A DNA stretch of 64,000 bases, from positions 1 through 64,000 of the forward strand of contig CAMNGC010000010.1 of the NCBI GenBank assembly GCA_946537885.1, given 5' to 3'. A program made the position numbers and the translations under genes. This document shows positions 95 through 54,079 of this stretch, one piece after another (within the stretch, counting starts at the first letter, position 1; every line of letters starts with the position of its first letter). Source of the stretch: an uncultured Clostridia bacterium. Lineage in GTDB: Bacteria > Bacillota > Clostridia > Saccharofermentanales > Saccharofermentanaceae. The notes under the pieces are model-generated. The model was not told where the DNA came from. It did no database searches and saw only the letters and a program-made list of their open reading frames with translations.

Positions 95-243
95 AATGCA
101 TACGTGATATCTTAATAACGTGTTCATGATGCATTTTGAAGCGCCTACGCTTTGCTGTATCTGACTTAAGACCCGCATCCGCCTATGATGCGGGTCTTGC
201 TATGTCAGTACAGTCCTGTTAGTTTCCCATGGGTCTGTACCTC
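95..243 (-). ncRNA. Structured RNA, copy 1 of a duplicated element
   Basis: About 150 nt, strongly similar to 4832-4984. On the minus strand the order is: a Shine-Dalgarno-like GAGGT (238-243); a three-codon ORF Met-Gly-Asn-stop (219-230); a helix formed by 204-213 with 155-165 containing one bulged A; a 12-bp hairpin (168-179 with 187-198) inside that helix; a 5-bp hairpin (148-152 with 139-143); and a final 7-bp helix (129-135 with 95-101) enclosing GATATCACG. Two segments are identical to copy 2: 30 nt at 138-167 and 22 nt at 215-236. The paired segments differ but keep pairing, which points to selection on RNA structure. It follows the stop of the 258-2456 gene and is read leftwards. I do not recognise it as a known riboswitch class. 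Confidence 0.6.
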
Positions 244-257
244 GTCTTCTCTAGATT

Positions 258-2456
258 TTACTCACTTTCGCCAATCAACAAACTTACTCTGTTATCAATA
301 ATCTCAATCACATCATCAAGATTCTTCTGTCCTTTAAGGTATGCCTGTATCTCCTCAGATAAGATTCTCGTTATCGTATAATATGTCGAGTAATAATGAT
401 CTCCGCTATTTATCATATCCACATAGTTATCTATTACATGCTGATCGATCAGATCATCACTATCGTATTCATTTATACATTCGATCAATGCGGCTTTATT
501 AACAGGAATATGATCAGAATACTCTTGAACATCATCACTAAGCAACTCCTGTATGAGCTCTTGCCCCCCATCGCAACATGAAGAGCATGTTGTTATTGAT
601 ACTGCAGAAGAGGCTATATAGGATGCGCTCCTACCGTCACAAGAAGGAAGCCCTATGAGTTTTATCTCTGCAAGCGAAGGTCCATACATCATATAATCCG
701 CCGCGAACCCTTGCAACACCGAGTAAGTTACTCTACTCTTGTTAAAGATAATCATTTCAGGGATATTATCATATAAATATGAGGCTAATTCCCTGAATTC
801 ACTATTATCAAAACTAATTCTCCCGTCACTGTCGTTATATAGATCAAGAGACGAACTCACCAGGATATTGAAATACGTTATTCTGTCTTGGACAACATAA
901 AGTGGATCATTTCCATCACAATAATCTCTCACAAAATCAGGATAATTATGAAATTCTATCCCGTCCTCTGAATAACCGGAGTCAGTTCTTATTGTCAATC
1001 CTTGCAAACATACATCTATGGGCAAAAAATAGTATGCTCCATTTTCCTCGGACGCATTAAATGCATTGGCCAAATAATCTTCTTCGGAAAGATTGAGACC
1101 GGAGATATACGATGATAGATCAACAAGATACTGATTATTATGAAGCTCACAATACTCCGCTCCTCCAAGAACAATATCCGGCCCTTCACCTGATCGTATA
1201 TCTGCCATGAGTTGATTAATAGCTGCACTACGACTCCTAATTAATTCCAAATCATAATCGTCTTCGGATATCAGCTGATCGAAATAATTCCAGAAATTAT
1301 ATGTGTCACTGATCACTATGTAGTAACTATTGTCCTCATTGTTGTATCTGCGAATTCCCTCTGCCTCCACAGCAGTCACCTGTTCAATATAAGCCGCTTT
1401 AATTATCTGTTTGCCTGCATTTGGATTACTGTCAGATTTGTTAAGAACTACAAAATCCGTATCGAACACTCCCGGACTGATAATAATACGTTCGTCTTCT
1501 ACAGATACTATTCTGGCATTAGAATAAAGACTATAGGATAAATCAGTATTATTAAAGTCCAATAATATGTGTTCTTCACCATTTCCATCTGATTTGATCA
1601 GGTTGCTTGATTTGATTGAATAAGTATCCGAGAGTTCATTAGTTTCTGACAATTGATAAGAATCAGTATTAAGGAGCAACTCAGTTTCTCTTCCAAATCT
1701 GGTGACAGACAATATGATATTGTCTTCATTTGATATGCTTATATCCCCAACAAAATCAACGTCTTCAAGAGGGATTCTGTCAACTTTATCGCCATCATAA
1801 ACATAAACCGAATAATCTGAATTCCCTTCGTAGCATTCCAAAAATACTTTACCATTCAAGAAGACGACATTATTTACTGATACAAATGCAGAATTATCTG
1901 TAGAAGCAATATCAATTAATTGAAGATCACTGATTTCCTTGTTTTCATAATCCATATTGGCTAAGTATGTTTTTCTCCCTCTGTAATCACTATACTGCAG
2001 TGTTAAAACTATGTAGGTCTGTCCATTGTTTTCATATATCCCATCAACATTATCAACAATACAATCTTCCTCAGAGAAAATACTGCTTAGATCTATCACT
2101 CCGATTATTGTTCCCTCTTCCCCTTTCTCTATACTGATACAGGTTATTTCGGATACCTTTCTATAATCATCCCCGACGTATTCATAGCCTCCATGATAGA
2201 TATATAATCGGTCAGCTGTAATAGCTTTTATAATACTGTTAACTACAGCATCAGGTGATTCATAATCAAACGACAAGTCCTCAGTGAGAGCAGTGAATGT
2301 AGTCGATTCCCACCATATGTCGTTCTCGCTGATATAAGCCGGCGTATTCTTGACGTTTTCATCTTTATTGCCATCCTTAATAAGATTGCAAGATGAGAAG
2401 GTAAAGATACCTATTAATACAAAAAGAAATATCCCGATCTTACTGTGCTTTGTCAT
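258..2456 (-). CDS. Lipoprotein with C-terminal solute-binding-protein-like domain
   Basis: A 732-residue exported lipoprotein: a hydrophobic signal segment ends in the lipobox FSSC (Cys about residue 23). Residues about 40-350 are rich in beta-strand patterns (repeated Tyr/Asp/Asn motifs) and may form a propeller-like sensor domain; I cannot assign a family. Residues about 375-720 resemble the family 1 extracellular solute-binding fold, with segments such as GEGPDIVLGG and YYFLPIDV. The start overlaps the stop of the upstream membrane-protein gene by 4 nt (ATGA), so the two are translationally coupled. No ABC ATPase is nearby. Base composition and codon use are more AT-rich than the rest of the window, which suggests acquisition by transfer. 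Ligand and role are unknown. Confidence 0.7.
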   Translation of the reverse strand: MTKHSKIGIFLFVLIGIFTFSSCNLIKDGNKDENVKNTPAYISENDIWWESTTFTALTEDLSFDYESPDAVVNSIIKAITADRLYIYHGGYEYVGDDYRKVSEITCISIEKGEEGTIIGVIDLSSIFSEEDCIVDNVDGIYENNGQTYIVLTLQYSDYRGRKTYLANMDYENKEISDLQLIDIASTDNSAFVSVNNVVFLNGKVFLECYEGNSDYSVYVYDGDKVDRIPLEDVDFVGDISISNEDNIILSVTRFGRETELLLNTDSYQLSETNELSDTYSIKSSNLIKSDGNGEEHILLDFNNTDLSYSLYSNARIVSVEDERIIISPGVFDTDFVVLNKSDSNPNAGKQIIKAAYIEQVTAVEAEGIRRYNNEDNSYYIVISDTYNFWNYFDQLISEDDYDLELIRSRSAAINQLMADIRSGEGPDIVLGGAEYCELHNNQYLVDLSSYISGLNLSEEDYLANAFNASEENGAYYFLPIDVCLQGLTIRTDSGYSEDGIEFHNYPDFVRDYCDGNDPLYVVQDRITYFNILVSSSLDLYNDSDGRISFDNSEFRELASYLYDNIPEMIIFNKSRVTYSVLQGFAADYMMYGPSLAEIKLIGLPSCDGRSASYIASSAVSITTCSSCCDGGQELIQELLSDDVQEYSDHIPVNKAALIECINEYDSDDLIDQHVIDNYVDMINSGDHYYSTYYTITRILSEEIQAYLKGQKNLDDVIEIIDNRVSLLIGESE

Positions 2457-3196
2457 TTTTTGTTTTCCTTTCGAGCATTTCTATGAGATATAGTTATATA
2501 CACCAGTATTGAGATAAAAAACAAATAATACAAGAATGAGTACCAAACAGGGAAAGTCTTTCCCACATATATCATTTTGAAATGTTCAGCATAATTAGCA
2601 TTTGTTAAAGGCAACAACCATTTAATCGAACTCCCCTCATGTGACATCAATATATTAGCTAAGCAAATAATAAGTATTACAAGCACACCGTTTATTCTCT
2701 TAAATCTATCCTTCAATACTATATACACCAATGACAATAAAATAATCACTAAATATATGAGTATCACGGAGCAACCGAAAGCCGCGGCAATGGTATTTCT
2801 AGTGTATAGATATGGGGGGATATCATTGGTACCCTTTATAGTTTGATAACTCCAAAGTCTTCCAATGTAAGAAATCGGCATAGAAGCAACGCAAAGTATA
2901 ATAAATACAGCAAACAGAAACAATCCAGATGAAGCAAAAGTGCACATTACTTTTTGTGGGCCTTCGAAAACACTATAGTTCAACCTTGATAGCGTAAGAA
3001 CATTTACAACTATTCCACAAAGTACCAAAAAGTACTCATACTTTGTATTAGTAATTAACACAAATGGCTCTAATATATTTACAGGATACGAGAACAGATA
3101 ATAAGAACTATAGCAATCGTGTACGCCCATTGCTATCACATATATTCCCGTAAGCAATACGATACTCTCATAAATACGTTTCTTTCTATCACACAT
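2453..3196 (-). CDS. Polytopic membrane protein of unknown function
   Basis: A 247-residue protein with about six or seven hydrophobic segments, for example around residues 10-28, 54-70, 88-110, 135-160, 170-185 and 215-237, and a basic C-terminus. There is no recognisable transporter signature and no ATP-binding partner. It lies between two lipoprotein genes, 1 nt after the upstream one and overlapping the downstream one by 4 nt, so the three probably form one membrane-associated complex. It could be a permease-like subunit or a membrane anchor for the two lipoproteins; the sequence does not decide. Confidence 0.6.
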   Translation of the reverse strand: MCDRKKRIYESIVLLTGIYVIAMGVHDCYSSYYLFSYPVNILEPFVLITNTKYEYFLVLCGIVVNVLTLSRLNYSVFEGPQKVMCTFASSGLFLFAVFIILCVASMPISYIGRLWSYQTIKGTNDIPPYLYTRNTIAAAFGCSVILIYLVIILLSLVYIVLKDRFKRINGVLVILIICLANILMSHEGSSIKWLLPLTNANYAEHFKMIYVGKTFPVWYSFLYYLFFISILVYITISHRNARKENKK

Positions 3197-3197
3197 A

Positions 3198-4331
3198 TTA
3201 ATATCCTAAATTGACTATACGATAAGCTTGTACACTCCCATCAACCGGATCAACGATTAATGCTTCGTTATAGCCTGTCTCAGAATTATGAATAACAATT
3301 TTCCATACCGGGTATAAAAGAAAACTCTCGTTCCACCGAACCGGGATTTTATTCATATAAAGCGAATCGTACATTCCAACAGGAAAGCACTCATATAAGA
3401 ACTCAACCTTATCAACAACAAATAATCTTTCATGAGATAGTGCATCACTGACGGTATCTAGTGCATATTTCAAATGCTTATTTATATTGATTTTTTCAAG
3501 ACAAGTAACATCACATAGTCCCCTGAAACTATCAATTGCATCAATAGTATGATCATCCACGTAAAAAGTAACACATCGCCATGTACATGGGAGATCAGTC
3601 TTTAATTCTGATGTGTATCCGTCTTCATAATCAATCGGTACACCGAACAATGCAGCTTGACCAAAGCATGCCACAACCTTTTTGTTATCTCCTAAACTAT
3701 ATGATCTGATTTTTTGTGTATAAAGCTCAATCGACTCATCCATATATGGTATATGTAAGCCTGATAAGAACTCGTTATTATAACTTACTATATCAGCTAG
3801 GCTTGTAACTCCATTTATTAGATTGAAAGTATCGTTTTTATGTGTGTCAAATTCTGTATAGTAGTACTCTTCATCAAATGTTACAAACTCAGGGATATAG
3901 CTTGTCGAATAAACATCTCCTGCGGCAGTTGCAATCTGCCCTTTATTTAAATGAACAGTCGAATGAAGGTATTCTCCTTTTACCTCATTACTATCATATG
4001 ATAGTATTAAGGGCTCATCCTGCAAATCAGCAGTTATGGCATCCCTGTCTACTAATACTCCAGTTGAAAGCATAAAACTATAGAACTCATCGTAATCATC
4101 ATTAGATAACGGAGTCAAAGGAATTGCCGACATCTTATATGAAGAACATGCGCTTTCAATACCAGGAACTGAAAAAAGAGTCTTAGAACAATCCAGATTA
4201 TCATAGCATGAATAAACCAAGTTGTAATCATTTGTATCATCACAATTTTGAACTTGTGGCATAGGTTGACAAGCTGTTAATAGCATTGTTTCCAAAAGTA
4301 ATAACAGACAATTCCGCAATTGATATTTCAT
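3198..4331 (-). CDS. Lipoprotein of unknown function
   Basis: About 377 residues from the ATG at 4331. The frame also offers TTG, GTG and ATG codons up to 4343; the last ATG is chosen because it directly precedes the basic and hydrophobic signal segment and has GGTG about 6 nt upstream. The signal ends in the lipobox LTAC. The C-terminal 40 residues (pattern P-W-K-I-V-I ... V-D-P-V-D-G-S-V-Q-A-Y) resemble the closing strands of PepSY/YycH-like extracellular domains, but the similarity is weak. It is third in the block of exported proteins and sits 1 nt before the membrane-protein gene. AT-rich like its neighbours. Confidence 0.6.
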   Translation of the reverse strand: MKYQLRNCLLLLLETMLLTACQPMPQVQNCDDTNDYNLVYSCYDNLDCSKTLFSVPGIESACSSYKMSAIPLTPLSNDDYDEFYSFMLSTGVLVDRDAITADLQDEPLILSYDSNEVKGEYLHSTVHLNKGQIATAAGDVYSTSYIPEFVTFDEEYYYTEFDTHKNDTFNLINGVTSLADIVSYNNEFLSGLHIPYMDESIELYTQKIRSYSLGDNKKVVACFGQAALFGVPIDYEDGYTSELKTDLPCTWRCVTFYVDDHTIDAIDSFRGLCDVTCLEKININKHLKYALDTVSDALSHERLFVVDKVEFLYECFPVGMYDSLYMNKIPVRWNESFLLYPVWKIVIHNSETGYNEALIVDPVDGSVQAYRIVNLGY

Positions 4332-4346
4332 AATCATCACCAAAAC

Positions 4347-4380
4347 AATCTAGGAGGAGCCATTAAGCTACTCCTAGATT
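4347..4380 (-). terminator. Hairpin between two exported-protein genes
   Basis: Perfect 10-bp inverted repeat (4347-4356 with 4371-4380) with a further 3-bp pairing in its loop. On the minus strand it is followed only by TGTTTT, so it is a weak terminator, an attenuator or an mRNA-stabilising stem. It separates the 4386-4787 gene from the downstream lipoprotein gene. Its minus strand also holds an 8-codon ORF with AGGAG upstream (4337-4363) whose stop overlaps a possible start of the lipoprotein gene. Confidence 0.5.
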
Positions 4381-4385
4381 AAGCG

Positions 4386-4787
4386 TTATCTCTTGGATAT
4401 AGTTCCCTTAATATGTGCGGTTCCACCACTATTGTAATTAAGAGTAAAAGTGAAAGTTACATAATTGGCCCATGGCAAAGGTGCGGCATATCCAATATGA
4501 TATGTTCCTGTAGATGATAACTGCGCAGGAACCCCGGTTGCATAGGGACAAGTAATGGTTACCGCTTTAAGTGTAGAAGTTCCAGAAACTTCTGTTACAG
4601 AAACATCATACCCAGCTCCAGATACAAAAATATCCCTAGTTTGACTAAATACATTCCCATAAGATGAATTAGTGTATACTAATTCAAAGTTTGCACTGTT
4701 GTATGCTGTTGCGCTGGAAATTGTGAACATAGATCCCATTACAAAAACTATTAATGCTAATATCAAAAGTATTTTTTTCTTTAACAT
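4386..4787 (-). CDS. Small exported protein of unknown function
   Basis: 133 residues with a clear Sec signal peptide (MLKKK followed by about 18 hydrophobic residues, predicted cut near SSATA). The mature part of about 105 residues is rich in Ser, Thr, Tyr, Val and Gly, with alternating beta-strand patterns and a single Cys. There is no lipobox or anchor, so it is probably secreted or retained through other proteins. The start has GAGG 9 nt upstream. The gene is preceded by the structured RNA at 4832-4984, which forms most of its leader. No family recognised. Confidence 0.6.
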   Translation of the reverse strand: MLKKKILLILALIVFVMGSMFTISSATAYNSANFELVYTNSSYGNVFSQTRDIFVSGAGYDVSVTEVSGTSTLKAVTITCPYATGVPAQLSSTGTYHIGYAAPLPWANYVTFTFTLNYNSGGTAHIKGTISKR

Positions 4788-4831
4788 GCCATTTTCCTCT
4801 ACATCGCATAATTGTTTTTCCTTGCCTCACC

Positions 4832-4984
4832 CCCTATACACGTGATATCCTGTTAATGCACTGGATGCAGGGTATGAAGCGCCTACGCTTTGCTGTATCT
4901 GACTTGGAAGACTCGTATTTCCGGTACGGGTCTTCTTTTATGTCAATACAGCCCTGTTAGTTTCCCATGGGTCTATACCTCCTT
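4832..4984 (-). ncRNA. Structured RNA, copy 2, in the leader of the 4386-4787 gene
   Basis: Same architecture as 95-243. On the minus strand: AAGGAGG (4978-4984), the three-codon ORF Met-Gly-Asn-stop (4957-4968), a helix 4942-4951 with 4893-4903 (one bulged A), an inner hairpin 4125-bp-scale stem at 4907-4917 with 4925-4935 (one mismatch), a 5-bp hairpin at 4877-4890, and a final helix 4865-4872 with 4832-4839. Changes relative to copy 1, such as a C-G to U-G pair and AAUGCAU/AUGCAUU to CCCUGCAU/GUAUAGGG, mostly preserve pairing. It ends about 45 nt before the start codon of the exported protein, a position typical of a cis-regulatory leader. Confidence 0.6.
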
Positions 4985-4999
4985 GTTCTTATCTGTCTG

Positions 5000-5593
5000 T
5001 CAATAGCTTGTGAAGTGACCTGTGCTGTCACATGTAAGTGTTAGTGTATATGATTTGCTCTGACCATTACTTGAAGCTATTCCATATATGCGTACATAAG
5101 CTTTGCTTGTCGTAATACTTCCGGAAGTAATTGTCGGACTACTGTTCCATGTGCTATAAACAGGTTTTGTATAACTACCATCACGAGAAATAACATTACA
5201 ATATCCGGTTCCATATGTGAACGTTCCTGATACCGAAACAGTAAAGATCTTAATTCCCTCATCTGTATAATAACTTCTGGATACACTATTACTTGCACCC
5301 TGAGTTCTGACAAGTGCAGGCTCACCTATAATCTGAACTGATACGGTTCTATCATCATAATCTATCTCTATGCTGAATTCGCTAATATTCTCAGGAACAT
5401 ATTCATAGCAGTCTGCTGAATCCGGATGAACCGTTTGGACAAGATCGATAAACTCAGAATAACTCTCTACTTCATGCGTCTCGAGATACTCAATAAGACT
5501 GAAGTCGGTCCCATCAATTTGCTCTTGATTTGGAGAATACCCCATAACGCTTAGTGTTGAGATTGTCAATAGTGTAGCGATCAGTTTCCTCAT
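5000..5593 (-). CDS. Exported protein of unknown function
   Basis: 197 residues with a short N-terminal signal (MRKLIATLLTISTLSVMG), no lipobox, then an acidic region (residues about 20-75) and a Ser/Thr/Tyr-rich C-terminal domain with strand-like repeats (SYYTDEG, TYGTGY, SYTLTLTC). The ribosome site is GGGAGG 8 nt upstream of the ATG. It lies 5 nt downstream of the XRE-type regulator gene, so the two are probably co-transcribed and the regulator may sense or control this protein. No family recognised; AT-rich codon use. Confidence 0.6.
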   Translation of the reverse strand: MRKLIATLLTISTLSVMGYSPNQEQIDGTDFSLIEYLETHEVESYSEFIDLVQTVHPDSADCYEYVPENISEFSIEIDYDDRTVSVQIIGEPALVRTQGASNSVSRSYYTDEGIKIFTVSVSGTFTYGTGYCNVISRDGSYTKPVYSTWNSSPTITSGSITTSKAYVRIYGIASSNGQSKSYTLTLTCDSTGHFTSY

Positions 5594-5598
5594 TTGTG

Positions 5599-6120
5599 TT
5601 ACCTCCCATTATTATTCACTGTATTAACAGTTACAGAATCATCCTCCATCGTGAAATATGATGGATTTCCCATTTCTATTGGCCCTTCCTTAATCTCTCC
5701 CCTTAAACCATGATTCATCCAAAAAAGCCATGTAAAGAAGACAAGTGCAAGGATAAGCAAGCAGGTAATTATCACAACTGAACTTTGAAGCCTTTTGTGT
5801 CTGATGATCGTCTTGATCTTCTCATCATCAAAGGAACTCTGATTCGCTTCGATCTTACTTACCTGATAAAGAATACTGTCAATTCGATCTGAAGTTTCAC
5901 GTATTACACTATCTGTATCTTTTTCCTCAATCTCAGCAGAATCTTCCAAATAAGAATCACCAAACAAAGCTCTAATGCGTTCCATATCTTCTTCAGTAGG
6001 ATCGAGCTTATTATTTTCCCAACGTGATAAAGTCGATCTGGAAACATGAAGCTTCTCAGCCAATTCAGATTGAGAAATACAATTATCTACTCTATATTTG
6101 ATGATTTTTCTGCCGTCCAT
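5599..6120 (-). CDS. Membrane-anchored XRE-family transcriptional regulator
   Basis: 173 residues from the ATG at 6120, chosen because GGAGG lies 8 nt upstream; the frame stays open to 6192 but without a ribosome site. Residues about 5-55 form a lambda-repressor-like HTH (SQSELAEKLHVSRSTLSRWE). A linker with coiled-coil character follows, then a single transmembrane segment at about 110-132 and a C-terminal tail of about 40 residues that should lie outside the cell. This layout suggests a one-component membrane sensor. It heads the block of exported proteins, and the palindromes at 6188-6201 and 6239-6256 upstream are likely operators. Confidence 0.75.
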   Translation of the reverse strand: MDGRKIIKYRVDNCISQSELAEKLHVSRSTLSRWENNKLDPTEEDMERIRALFGDSYLEDSAEIEEKDTDSVIRETSDRIDSILYQVSKIEANQSSFDDEKIKTIIRHKRLQSSVVIITCLLILALVFFTWLFWMNHGLRGEIKEGPIEMGNPSYFTMEDDSVTVNTVNNNGR

Positions 6121-6143
6121 ATATTTTCCTCCATCATATCTTG

Positions 6144-6171
6144 AGTCTACATATGCAAAATTGCTTGTCAA
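6144..6171 (-). promoter_or_regulatory. Promoter of the XRE-regulator operon
   Basis: Minus-strand TTGACA (6166-6171), a 16-bp spacer and TAGACT (6144-6149). This places the transcript start about 17 nt before the chosen ATG. Confidence 0.5.
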
Positions 6172-6187
6172 TGCAAAAACTGAATGT

Positions 6188-6256
6188 TGCACATATGTGC
6201 ACGAGAGAACGCCCTGTTTTCAGGGCTTGTGCAAATTGTGTGCAAATATATGCACA
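6188..6256. promoter_or_regulatory. Palindromic operator cluster upstream of the XRE regulator
   Basis: Perfect 14-bp palindrome TGCACATATGTGCA at 6188-6201; an inverted pair TGTGCA/TGCACA with a 6-bp spacer at 6239-6256; and a further TGTGCA half-site at 6228-6233. A 6-bp hairpin GCCCTG/CAGGGC lies between them (6211-6226). The sites sit just upstream of the regulator promoter, consistent with autoregulation. Confidence 0.5.
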
Positions 6257-53251: not shown

Positions 53252-53950
53252 TCAGGATACCGCGTCGGCCTGAACCTTGTTGAGAGCATTTCTTACCGCG
53301 GGGATAAGAAGCACTACAACCGTCAGAGCGCACTCGGCACCAAGATATATACCATTATACGCCAAAGAATAGAGAGCGCCGCTGGTAAATCCCCAATCGG
53401 ATGCATATTCACTGAAGAAGAGCCATCCGGACAGGAATGCAAAAGCATATCTTCCGAGCACCGACAAGATATAAGCAGGCACAATTCCGTATCTCATTTC
53501 CTTGATCTTAGAAGGGATGGCACCTGAAAGACCAAGAGCGCCGAACGCAAAGATATAGTCAATAAGCATCTGGGGGATACTGATAATATAAGGATCAACC
53601 AGCATCTGCAGGATACCGTAGGCCACTCCGACCGTAAGGCCAGTGCCGAGACCATACCAGAAACCTATAAGTGAGATGAAGAGCATGCTGAAGAGTGTGA
53701 TGGATCCGCCCATAGGGAACGAATACAACTTGGCAAAGGATGTCAGAAGCGCCAGAGCCATAGCCATAGCCGAGAACGCCATCTTCTTCGTGCTCATCTT
53801 CTTTTTGCTTCCGAAAATAGACACGCCGATGATCAGGAACACAATAGCGATAACTACAAGAGCCGTATAACCGGCATCCTTGAGTTCGTACATGGTTCCG
53901 CCGTAACCGTCGTCAACCTTCTTTGCAAACAGACCGAAAAAACTACTCAT
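53252..53950 (-). CDS. thiT: Thiamine-specific ECF transporter S component ThiT
   Basis: 232 residues with an N-terminal hydrophobic segment of its own plus about six more. The ThiT signatures LQMLVDPYIISIPQMLIDY and the following FAFGALGL are clear. It binds thiamine and works with the shared ECF energising module encoded elsewhere. Its leader is a TPP riboswitch, which supports the assignment independently. Confidence 0.92.
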   Translation of the reverse strand: MSSFFGLFAKKVDDGYGGTMYELKDAGYTALVVIAIVFLIIGVSIFGSKKKMSTKKMAFSAMAMALALLTSFAKLYSFPMGGSITLFSMLFISLIGFWYGLGTGLTVGVAYGILQMLVDPYIISIPQMLIDYIFAFGALGLSGAIPSKIKEMRYGIVPAYILSVLGRYAFAFLSGWLFFSEYASDWGFTSGALYSLAYNGIYLGAECALTVVVLLIPAVRNALNKVQADAVS

Positions 53951-53956
53951 AAAAAA

Positions 53957-54044
53957 AGACCTCCCTCCGTCGGCATTACCCGTGCAGGTTCATCGGGTCG
54001 ATGCTCAATAGCACCCTCTCAGCCGGTCACACCAGCTCCCCGTG
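53957..54044 (-). promoter_or_regulatory. TPP riboswitch (THI element)
   Basis: On the minus strand the THI-box consensus blocks occur in order: GGGGAGCTGG, GGCTGAGAGGG, GACCCGATGAACCTG and CGGGTAATGCCGACGGAGGG. The last block merges with the thiT ribosome site (GGAGGGAGG), so ligand binding can hide it; regulation is probably translational. Confidence 0.93.
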
Positions 54045-54079
54045 TAATAGTGAACATCTCGTTCACGGTCGCAAATATA

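Follow-up and report, generated by a model that had tools for sequence, protein, structure and literature searches.

Sequence conservation and covariation point to a structured leader RNA with a conserved mini-ORF upstream of small exported-protein genes in a genus of the Saccharofermentanaceae

Two copies of a structured RNA

One structured RNA occurs twice on the minus strand of the window, our name for the whole stretch of DNA analysed here (64,000 nucleotides (nt); positions 1 to 64,000 of contig CAMNGC010000010.1, assembly GCA_946537885.1, from an uncultured Clostridia bacterium of the Saccharofermentanaceae). Covariance model R1 places copy 1 at 81-244 and copy 2 at 4818-4982. A preliminary description, made from the sequence of the window, had put the copies at 95-243 and 4832-4984; it was right about both copies and about the strand, and the extents given by the model are slightly wider. 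There is good support for the element as a structured leader RNA that is confined to one genus, bears a conserved mini-ORF (an open reading frame, ORF, of very few codons) and is uncatalogued in Rfam. The preliminary description had found no riboswitch to match it with. Neither copy matches any of the 4227 families of Rfam release 15 at gathering score, and the sole match in a permissive scan (E up to 5), at 15.8 bits against a cut-off of 112, is not convincing. (The window also contains a TPP riboswitch at 53945-54052 on the minus strand, with 60.7 bits; it is an ordinary one.)

Read 5' to 3', the element starts with a Shine-Dalgarno sequence, GGAGGU, and a spacer, RYRGACC-N, then an AUG with one or two further codons, in most cases ended by a stop; in the consensus of the structured element the AUG typically continues GGN-NNN-UAA. 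Then come helix P1 (consensus GCUGUA-Y-UGAC / GUCA-GA-UACAGC), with the variable hairpin P2 inside it; the linker AAAGCGUAGGM, which is unpaired; the long hairpin P4, which opens with GCYUY, closes with RRGGC or GGAGC and has a loop stretch near GAUAUCAC; and the 3' tail AAGGAA. In copy 2 (166.8 bits with R1), the extended Shine-Dalgarno sequence and invariant spacer, GGAGGUAUAGACC, were located by motif search at 4970-4982, and the mini-ORF AUG-GGA-AAC-UAA (MGN, stop) occupies 4957-4968. P1 (GCUGUA-U-UGAC / GUCA-GA-UACAGC) around P2 spans 4892-4952, the single-stranded linker AAAGCGUAGGC 4881-4891, P4 with its conserved loop stretch 4824-4880, and the tail 4818-4823. Copy 1 (165.5 bits) has its Shine-Dalgarno sequence and spacer, GAGGUACAGACC, at 232-243, the same mini-ORF at 219-230, P1 with P2 at 154-214, the linker AAAGCGUAGGC at 143-153 and P4 at 87-142, all of these again on the minus strand. 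The mini-ORF is backed by counts of in-frame early stops, P1/P2 and the P4 of copy 1 by pair counts, the P4 of copy 2 by double changes across copies in 9 of 15 pairs, and linker and tail by the alignment, a motif similar to the linker being present in a second RNA group described below.

Copy 2 lies, as first described, in the leader of a small exported-protein gene, an ORF of 133 amino acids (aa) with an N-terminal signal-peptide-like stretch (4386-4787, minus strand). On its other side an ORF for a 197-aa exported protein (5000-5593, minus) ends 17 nt before the Shine-Dalgarno sequence; just upstream of that gene is a helix-turn-helix (XRE-like) protein with a likely membrane segment (5599-6192, minus). 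A 732-aa lipoprotein-like gene (258-2456, minus; no Pfam or NCBIfam match above cut-off) ends 13 nt before copy 1. Copy 1 itself reaches the end of the contig (C10 in our numbering); the gene downstream of it is absent because the window starts at the first base of the contig. Contig breaks adjoin elements here, at window 1, and at G019:C30:1, as expected for repeated leaders.

Fold and covariation

A BLASTN search with copy 2 found two further copies in its own genome, C12:46631-46739 (98% over 109 nt) and C20:2800-2907 (79%), with E-values of 9e-49 and 1e-19; among genomes of the same genus, G019 has two copies and G011 has one. Model R1 was built from these seven (four from the own genome, two from G019 and one from G011). 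It recovers all seven and, in addition, G011:C6 (87.5 bits), G025:C11 (78.3 bits) and a decayed piece in G011:C18, making nine structured copies, four in the own genome and five in same-genus relatives. A sample of 391 genomes, spread evenly over the class, contained no copy outside the genus.

Pairwise alignment of the two window copies confirms the identical blocks reported earlier, of 22 nt (AGACCCATGGGAAACTAACAGG) and about 30 nt (AAGTCAGATACAGCAAAGCGTAGGCGCTTCA), and also the helices that differ in sequence and still pair, such as GCUUCAAAAUGCAU/AUGCAUUGUUGGAGC in copy 1 against GCUUCAUACCCUGCAU/GUGUAUAGGGGGUGAGGC in copy 2; the C-G/U-G swap that had been pointed out is the pair at alignment columns 38/88. 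Over the nine copies, standard pairs fill 91.2% of pair cells, compared with 30-38% when the partner is slid by 1-3 columns (P1 is paired in 99% of cells and P2 in 85%). Both sides have changed in 17 of the 39 pairs, a number reached in 0 of 500 shuffles. Having been fitted to the structure, this alignment is tilted in its favour; a MAFFT alignment of seven copies, which was not fitted, still has double changes in 15 of the 39 pairs. Absence of covariation across homologues had been named as grounds for giving up the idea of an RNA, and compensatory changes were found instead. The predicted fold is more stable than expected by chance in copy 1 (z = -4.5) and less markedly so in copy 2 (z = -1.6). 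As a feature of sequence and structure, the structured RNA is well supported.

Several other identities were considered and set aside. No tRNA or tmRNA was found, and neither window copy contains a minus-strand site resembling an intrinsic terminator (a GC-rich hairpin with a U run). The element does not appear to encode a longer protein, since reading frames are not kept between copies: copy c20 is open for 54 codons and its relatives are not. For a phage or plasmid origin, no match was found in plasmid or phage records; where the leader motif does match viral contigs, it reads into longer ORFs with neither the short stop nor the fold, which suggests ordinary gene starts or chance matches. 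Literature searches brought up no description of the element.

The mini-ORF and a second RNA group

The fold that had first drawn attention to the element stood up to analysis; the preliminary description had missed two things, the 5'-terminal mini-ORF with its conservation and a second, differently folded group. Weak matches to R1 consist of the 5' end alone, so the mini-ORF leader is wider than the fold. (The weak match L052 proved to be where an ordinary gene begins, and was left out.) Of 85 same-genus genomes, 18 contain the motif GGDGGTRYRGACCNATGK, at 27 places in all; the reversed control pattern does not occur. An order-wide search for the motif adds two true leaders, from a neighbouring genus of the same family, and two unrelated matches, and the leader is so far known only from this genus and that near neighbour.

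In the AUG frame, 24 of 32 distinct leaders have a stop at codon 3 or 4, compared with 7/32 and 0/32 in the other two frames (the 32 leaders are related, and the count is not the probability for an independent sample). The short peptides vary (MW, MWI, MWM, MWW, MGN, MGY, MGK, MGC, MVS, MVY, MC) and all three stop codons occur, which argues that it is the short frame that is conserved and not the peptide. With a short ORF, its own Shine-Dalgarno sequence, an early stop and conservation as an ORF, the arrangement has, as far as sequence can tell, the makings of a leader minigene.

In leaders of the MW type the mini-ORF is preceded by a structured stretch in which hairpin H1 comes first, then the linker GAGUAGGAGUUU, a second hairpin (CUGAUCGAGUGCU/AGCACCUCUGAUCAG) and the tail GUAARCAAGGAA; the parts are thus ordered as in the window type (P1/P2, linker, P4, tail). 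Model R2, made for this second group, matches strongly at 12 loci in six genomes and more weakly in others; two of the strong loci lack a mini-ORF. Standard pairs make up 91% in this group against 30-44% when slid, with double changes in 6 of 24 pairs. R2 does not detect the window group, and a profile cross-search reaches just E ~0.3-0.9, at the right places. Of 13 second-group loci, 7 have the linker-plus-tail motif of the window group where it would be expected, compared with one unrelated match in ~533 kb, the other background match listed (L063) being itself a leader of the second-group type. The two groups are likely to be related, which falls short of proof. GCACCUC, a strand of P4, is a complement of the Shine-Dalgarno sequence GGAGGUGC in 7 of 9 second-group leaders (-11 to -15 kcal/mol, compared with about -8 for shuffled sequences), and this complementarity goes beyond nearly all shuffles.

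Downstream genes and distribution

In the own-genome copies, the Shine-Dalgarno sequence lies 13-35 nt past the stop codon of the preceding gene. A gene for an exported protein of 107-138 aa follows 6 of the 7 copies checked, and after nearly every leader examined the first large ORF encodes 100-157 aa with a signal-peptide-like start and begins within ~60-210 nt. The element thereby recurs upstream of one functional kind of gene, that of small signal-peptide proteins, as a cis-acting leader would. These proteins fall into several families with no obvious common sequence, and those tested had no Pfam or NCBIfam match above cut-off. It is the leader, therefore, and not the gene, that is the common element. 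Proteins similar to the 133-aa product follow leaders L084 and L086; its predicted structure is beta-rich, at low confidence (pLDDT 60). Genes with a C-terminus resembling that of the 197-aa protein (YSLTLTCDDSG..SY, stop) precede many other leaders. At L036 (3389-6361), an ABC transporter with two LolE/FtsX-like or related permeases comes directly after the exported protein of the leader, and is possibly an export or immunity system.

The named records that have the element or its P1-only relatives are metagenome-assembled genomes from the rumen, labelled Saccharofermentans, Mageeibacillus, Ruminococcaceae, Clostridiales and, in one case, "Paludibacteraceae". The last of these (L094, 6481-6530, minus strand) has a P1-only leader and an exported gene that closely resemble the ones in a Ruminococcaceae record (L092), and is probably mis-binned.

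How might the leader work?

Regulation in cis is the natural reading of the position and conservation of the element. The earlier suggestion of a new cis-regulatory RNA belonging to an exported-protein system has gained support from the lack of an Rfam match, the covariation, the link to exported genes in other species and the count of about 30 leaders. We propose that the element is a cis-acting structured leader, either at the 5' end of the mRNA or between the genes of an operon, that would control the output of the small exported protein downstream through ribosome occupancy of the mini-ORF; to our minds this stands an even chance of being correct. A ribosome would bind the very strong Shine-Dalgarno sequence, read the two or three codons and stop before the folded part. 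Its presence there could shield the downstream mRNA from nucleases, and could also decide which helix forms: UAYAG, beside the Shine-Dalgarno sequence, may pair with CUGUA and close a hairpin over the mini-ORF, or CUGUA may pair with the later UACAG to give P1, which would win once UACAG has been made. A ribosome on the mini-ORF would block the UAYAG/CUGUA pairing. The competing pairings, the protection of the mRNA and the direction of control are all inferred. UAYAG and CUGUA are able to pair in 9 of 9 copies, and nascent RNA folded up to CUGUA is predicted to form the hairpin in both window copies (-9 to -10 kcal/mol).

A number of observations weigh against this proposal. An early stop is absent from copies c20 and g19b, and the mini-ORF of g11 has nine codons. 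The UAYAG/CUGUA pairing never varies on both sides, so conservation speaks neither for it nor against it. In the window group, pairing between the Shine-Dalgarno sequence and GCYUC is not above that of shuffles, and 2 of the 9 second-group leaders have no anti-Shine-Dalgarno strand. No intact gene for a small exported protein follows copy c12; the next large ORF, lipoprotein-like and of 737 aa, starts 332 nt further on.

A simpler possibility is that the bound ribosome might protect the mRNA from nucleases, as has been proposed for minigenes and for leaders with strong Shine-Dalgarno sequences. Hairpins and Shine-Dalgarno sequence together might also be a processing and mRNA-stability element, a site of cleavage and protection from which the parts of an operon accumulate differently with no switching at all. 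We think this possible, if doubtful. The operon-internal place just past a stop codon would suit such an element, as would the long hairpins P1/P2 and P4 and the strong extended Shine-Dalgarno sequence, which resembles those of stabilising leaders; the Shine-Dalgarno sequence alone suffices in such leaders, however, which leaves the kept start and early stop unexplained (PMC3997798), and stabilisation alone does not explain the conserved linker and loop. These same unpaired stretches (GNGUAGGM in the linker, GAUAUCAC or GUAUAGCAC in the loop, and the tail AAGGAA), set beside variable arms, look like an aptamer, and with the Shine-Dalgarno/anti-Shine-Dalgarno layout of the second group they would fit a riboswitch in which the linker and the loop of P4 act as the binding site for a small molecule or a signal, the fold switches expression and the mini-ORF merely sits in the expression platform. 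That is improbable, given that the downstream genes are all for secreted proteins and none for metabolism or transport, that g11, G011b and G025 preserve the linker poorly, and that the range is one genus.

The remaining explanations treat the pairing as a by-product of something else. Six leaders (one decayed) lie ~150-200 nt past agrB with an agrD-like gene between (in G001, G008, G017 and G155, and twice in G011), and a direct repeat, TTTTACTTTATCCC, spaced ~21-22 bp apart, precedes several leaders, so the element might be an operator or promoter repeat in the DNA of an Agr/LytTR-type quorum-sensing regulon. The arms change in a compensatory manner, though, unlike a protein site, and in the window region promoter-like matches do not exceed what shuffled sequence gives. 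While agrB scores above cut-off in 15 of 22 leader-bearing genomes, it was not found in the own genome (87.6% complete) or in G019, which between them are home to 6 of the 9 structured copies; the agr link consequently does not reach the window, and we regard the operator explanation as very unlikely. Last, a transposon end, miniature inverted-repeat transposable element or other mobile repeat that folds by chance would account for several copies per genome, for contig breaks near copies, and for the near-identity of c12 and copy 2 (98% over 109 nt, after which they diverge, suggesting exchange between copies). The preliminary description had named a transposon match as a reason to abandon the RNA; in our reading of the nine aligned copies the two ends, GGAGG... 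and ...AAGGAA, do not form an inverted repeat, and no transposon-like ends were seen. Add to this that copies keep the same orientation between co-directional genes, that the helices covary and that plasmid and phage records have no match, and a mobile origin becomes extremely unlikely.

Some details of the quorum-sensing context are worth recording for themselves. The TTTTACTTTATCCC repeat is found upstream of leaders L066, L068, L070, L078, L079, L080 and L088, which are without the window-type fold, and is likely a regulator site common to these mini-ORF leaders; with its 21-22 bp spacing we take it to resemble LytTR-type operators. The agrB next to a leader is seemingly split into two frames in G001:C11, G017:C4 and G008:C13, possibly by a frameshift or a sequencing error. 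At L058 (690-1190), a decayed RNA copy with no Shine-Dalgarno sequence lies directly past an agrD-like gene ending in PKRPKK.

Returning to occupancy of the mini-ORF, the most far-reaching version of the proposal is that these leaders form a new ribosome-sensing class, in which it is occupancy and not the peptide that flips the RNA helices and sets the output of small secreted proteins. We advance this tentatively and think it rather unlikely in its full form. What speaks to it is that a start codon and a stop, with just one or two codons of arbitrary identity between them, are kept across many species before unrelated secreted proteins, which points to occupancy as the regulatory event. If true, the leader would also mark a set of unannotated small exported proteins of rumen bacteria, possibly competitive ones.

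Comparison with known systems

The element has features of several known kinds of leader. In erm-type leader-peptide attenuators, a translated short ORF is combined with competing hairpins (1:2 versus 2:3), and here too a short ORF is followed by strands able to pair in alternative ways. Unlike the erm type, the ORF is merely two or three codons long with no conserved peptide, making peptide-dependent stalling unlikely. Like the riboswitches and leader RNAs of Rfam, the element has a covarying structure upstream of genes and conserved unpaired stretches, but it differs from them in that no family matches at gathering score.

Closer parallels exist for the 5' end. Strong Shine-Dalgarno leaders of the STAB-SD type stabilise Firmicute mRNAs, for example those of cryIIIA and ermC, and for this a start codon is not needed (PMC3997798). 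The likeness lies in a strong Shine-Dalgarno sequence within a long Firmicute mRNA leader; the difference is that here the AUG, the short frame and the stop are conserved and joined to a covarying fold. Two-codon leader minigenes are known to raise downstream expression, and for the minigene leaders of axe-txe and of LEE1 ler and LEE4 esp, action in cis has been reported and protection of the mRNA by ribosome binding proposed (PMC8708949). Those leaders share with the present one an ORF of 2-6 codons with its own Shine-Dalgarno sequence in the leader of the regulated gene. They are single cases, whereas here about 30 leaders have a common, invariant Shine-Dalgarno/spacer/AUG motif and part of them a conserved fold. 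If the proposal is true, these leaders would show minigene control recurring in nature, beyond the handful of isolated examples known so far.

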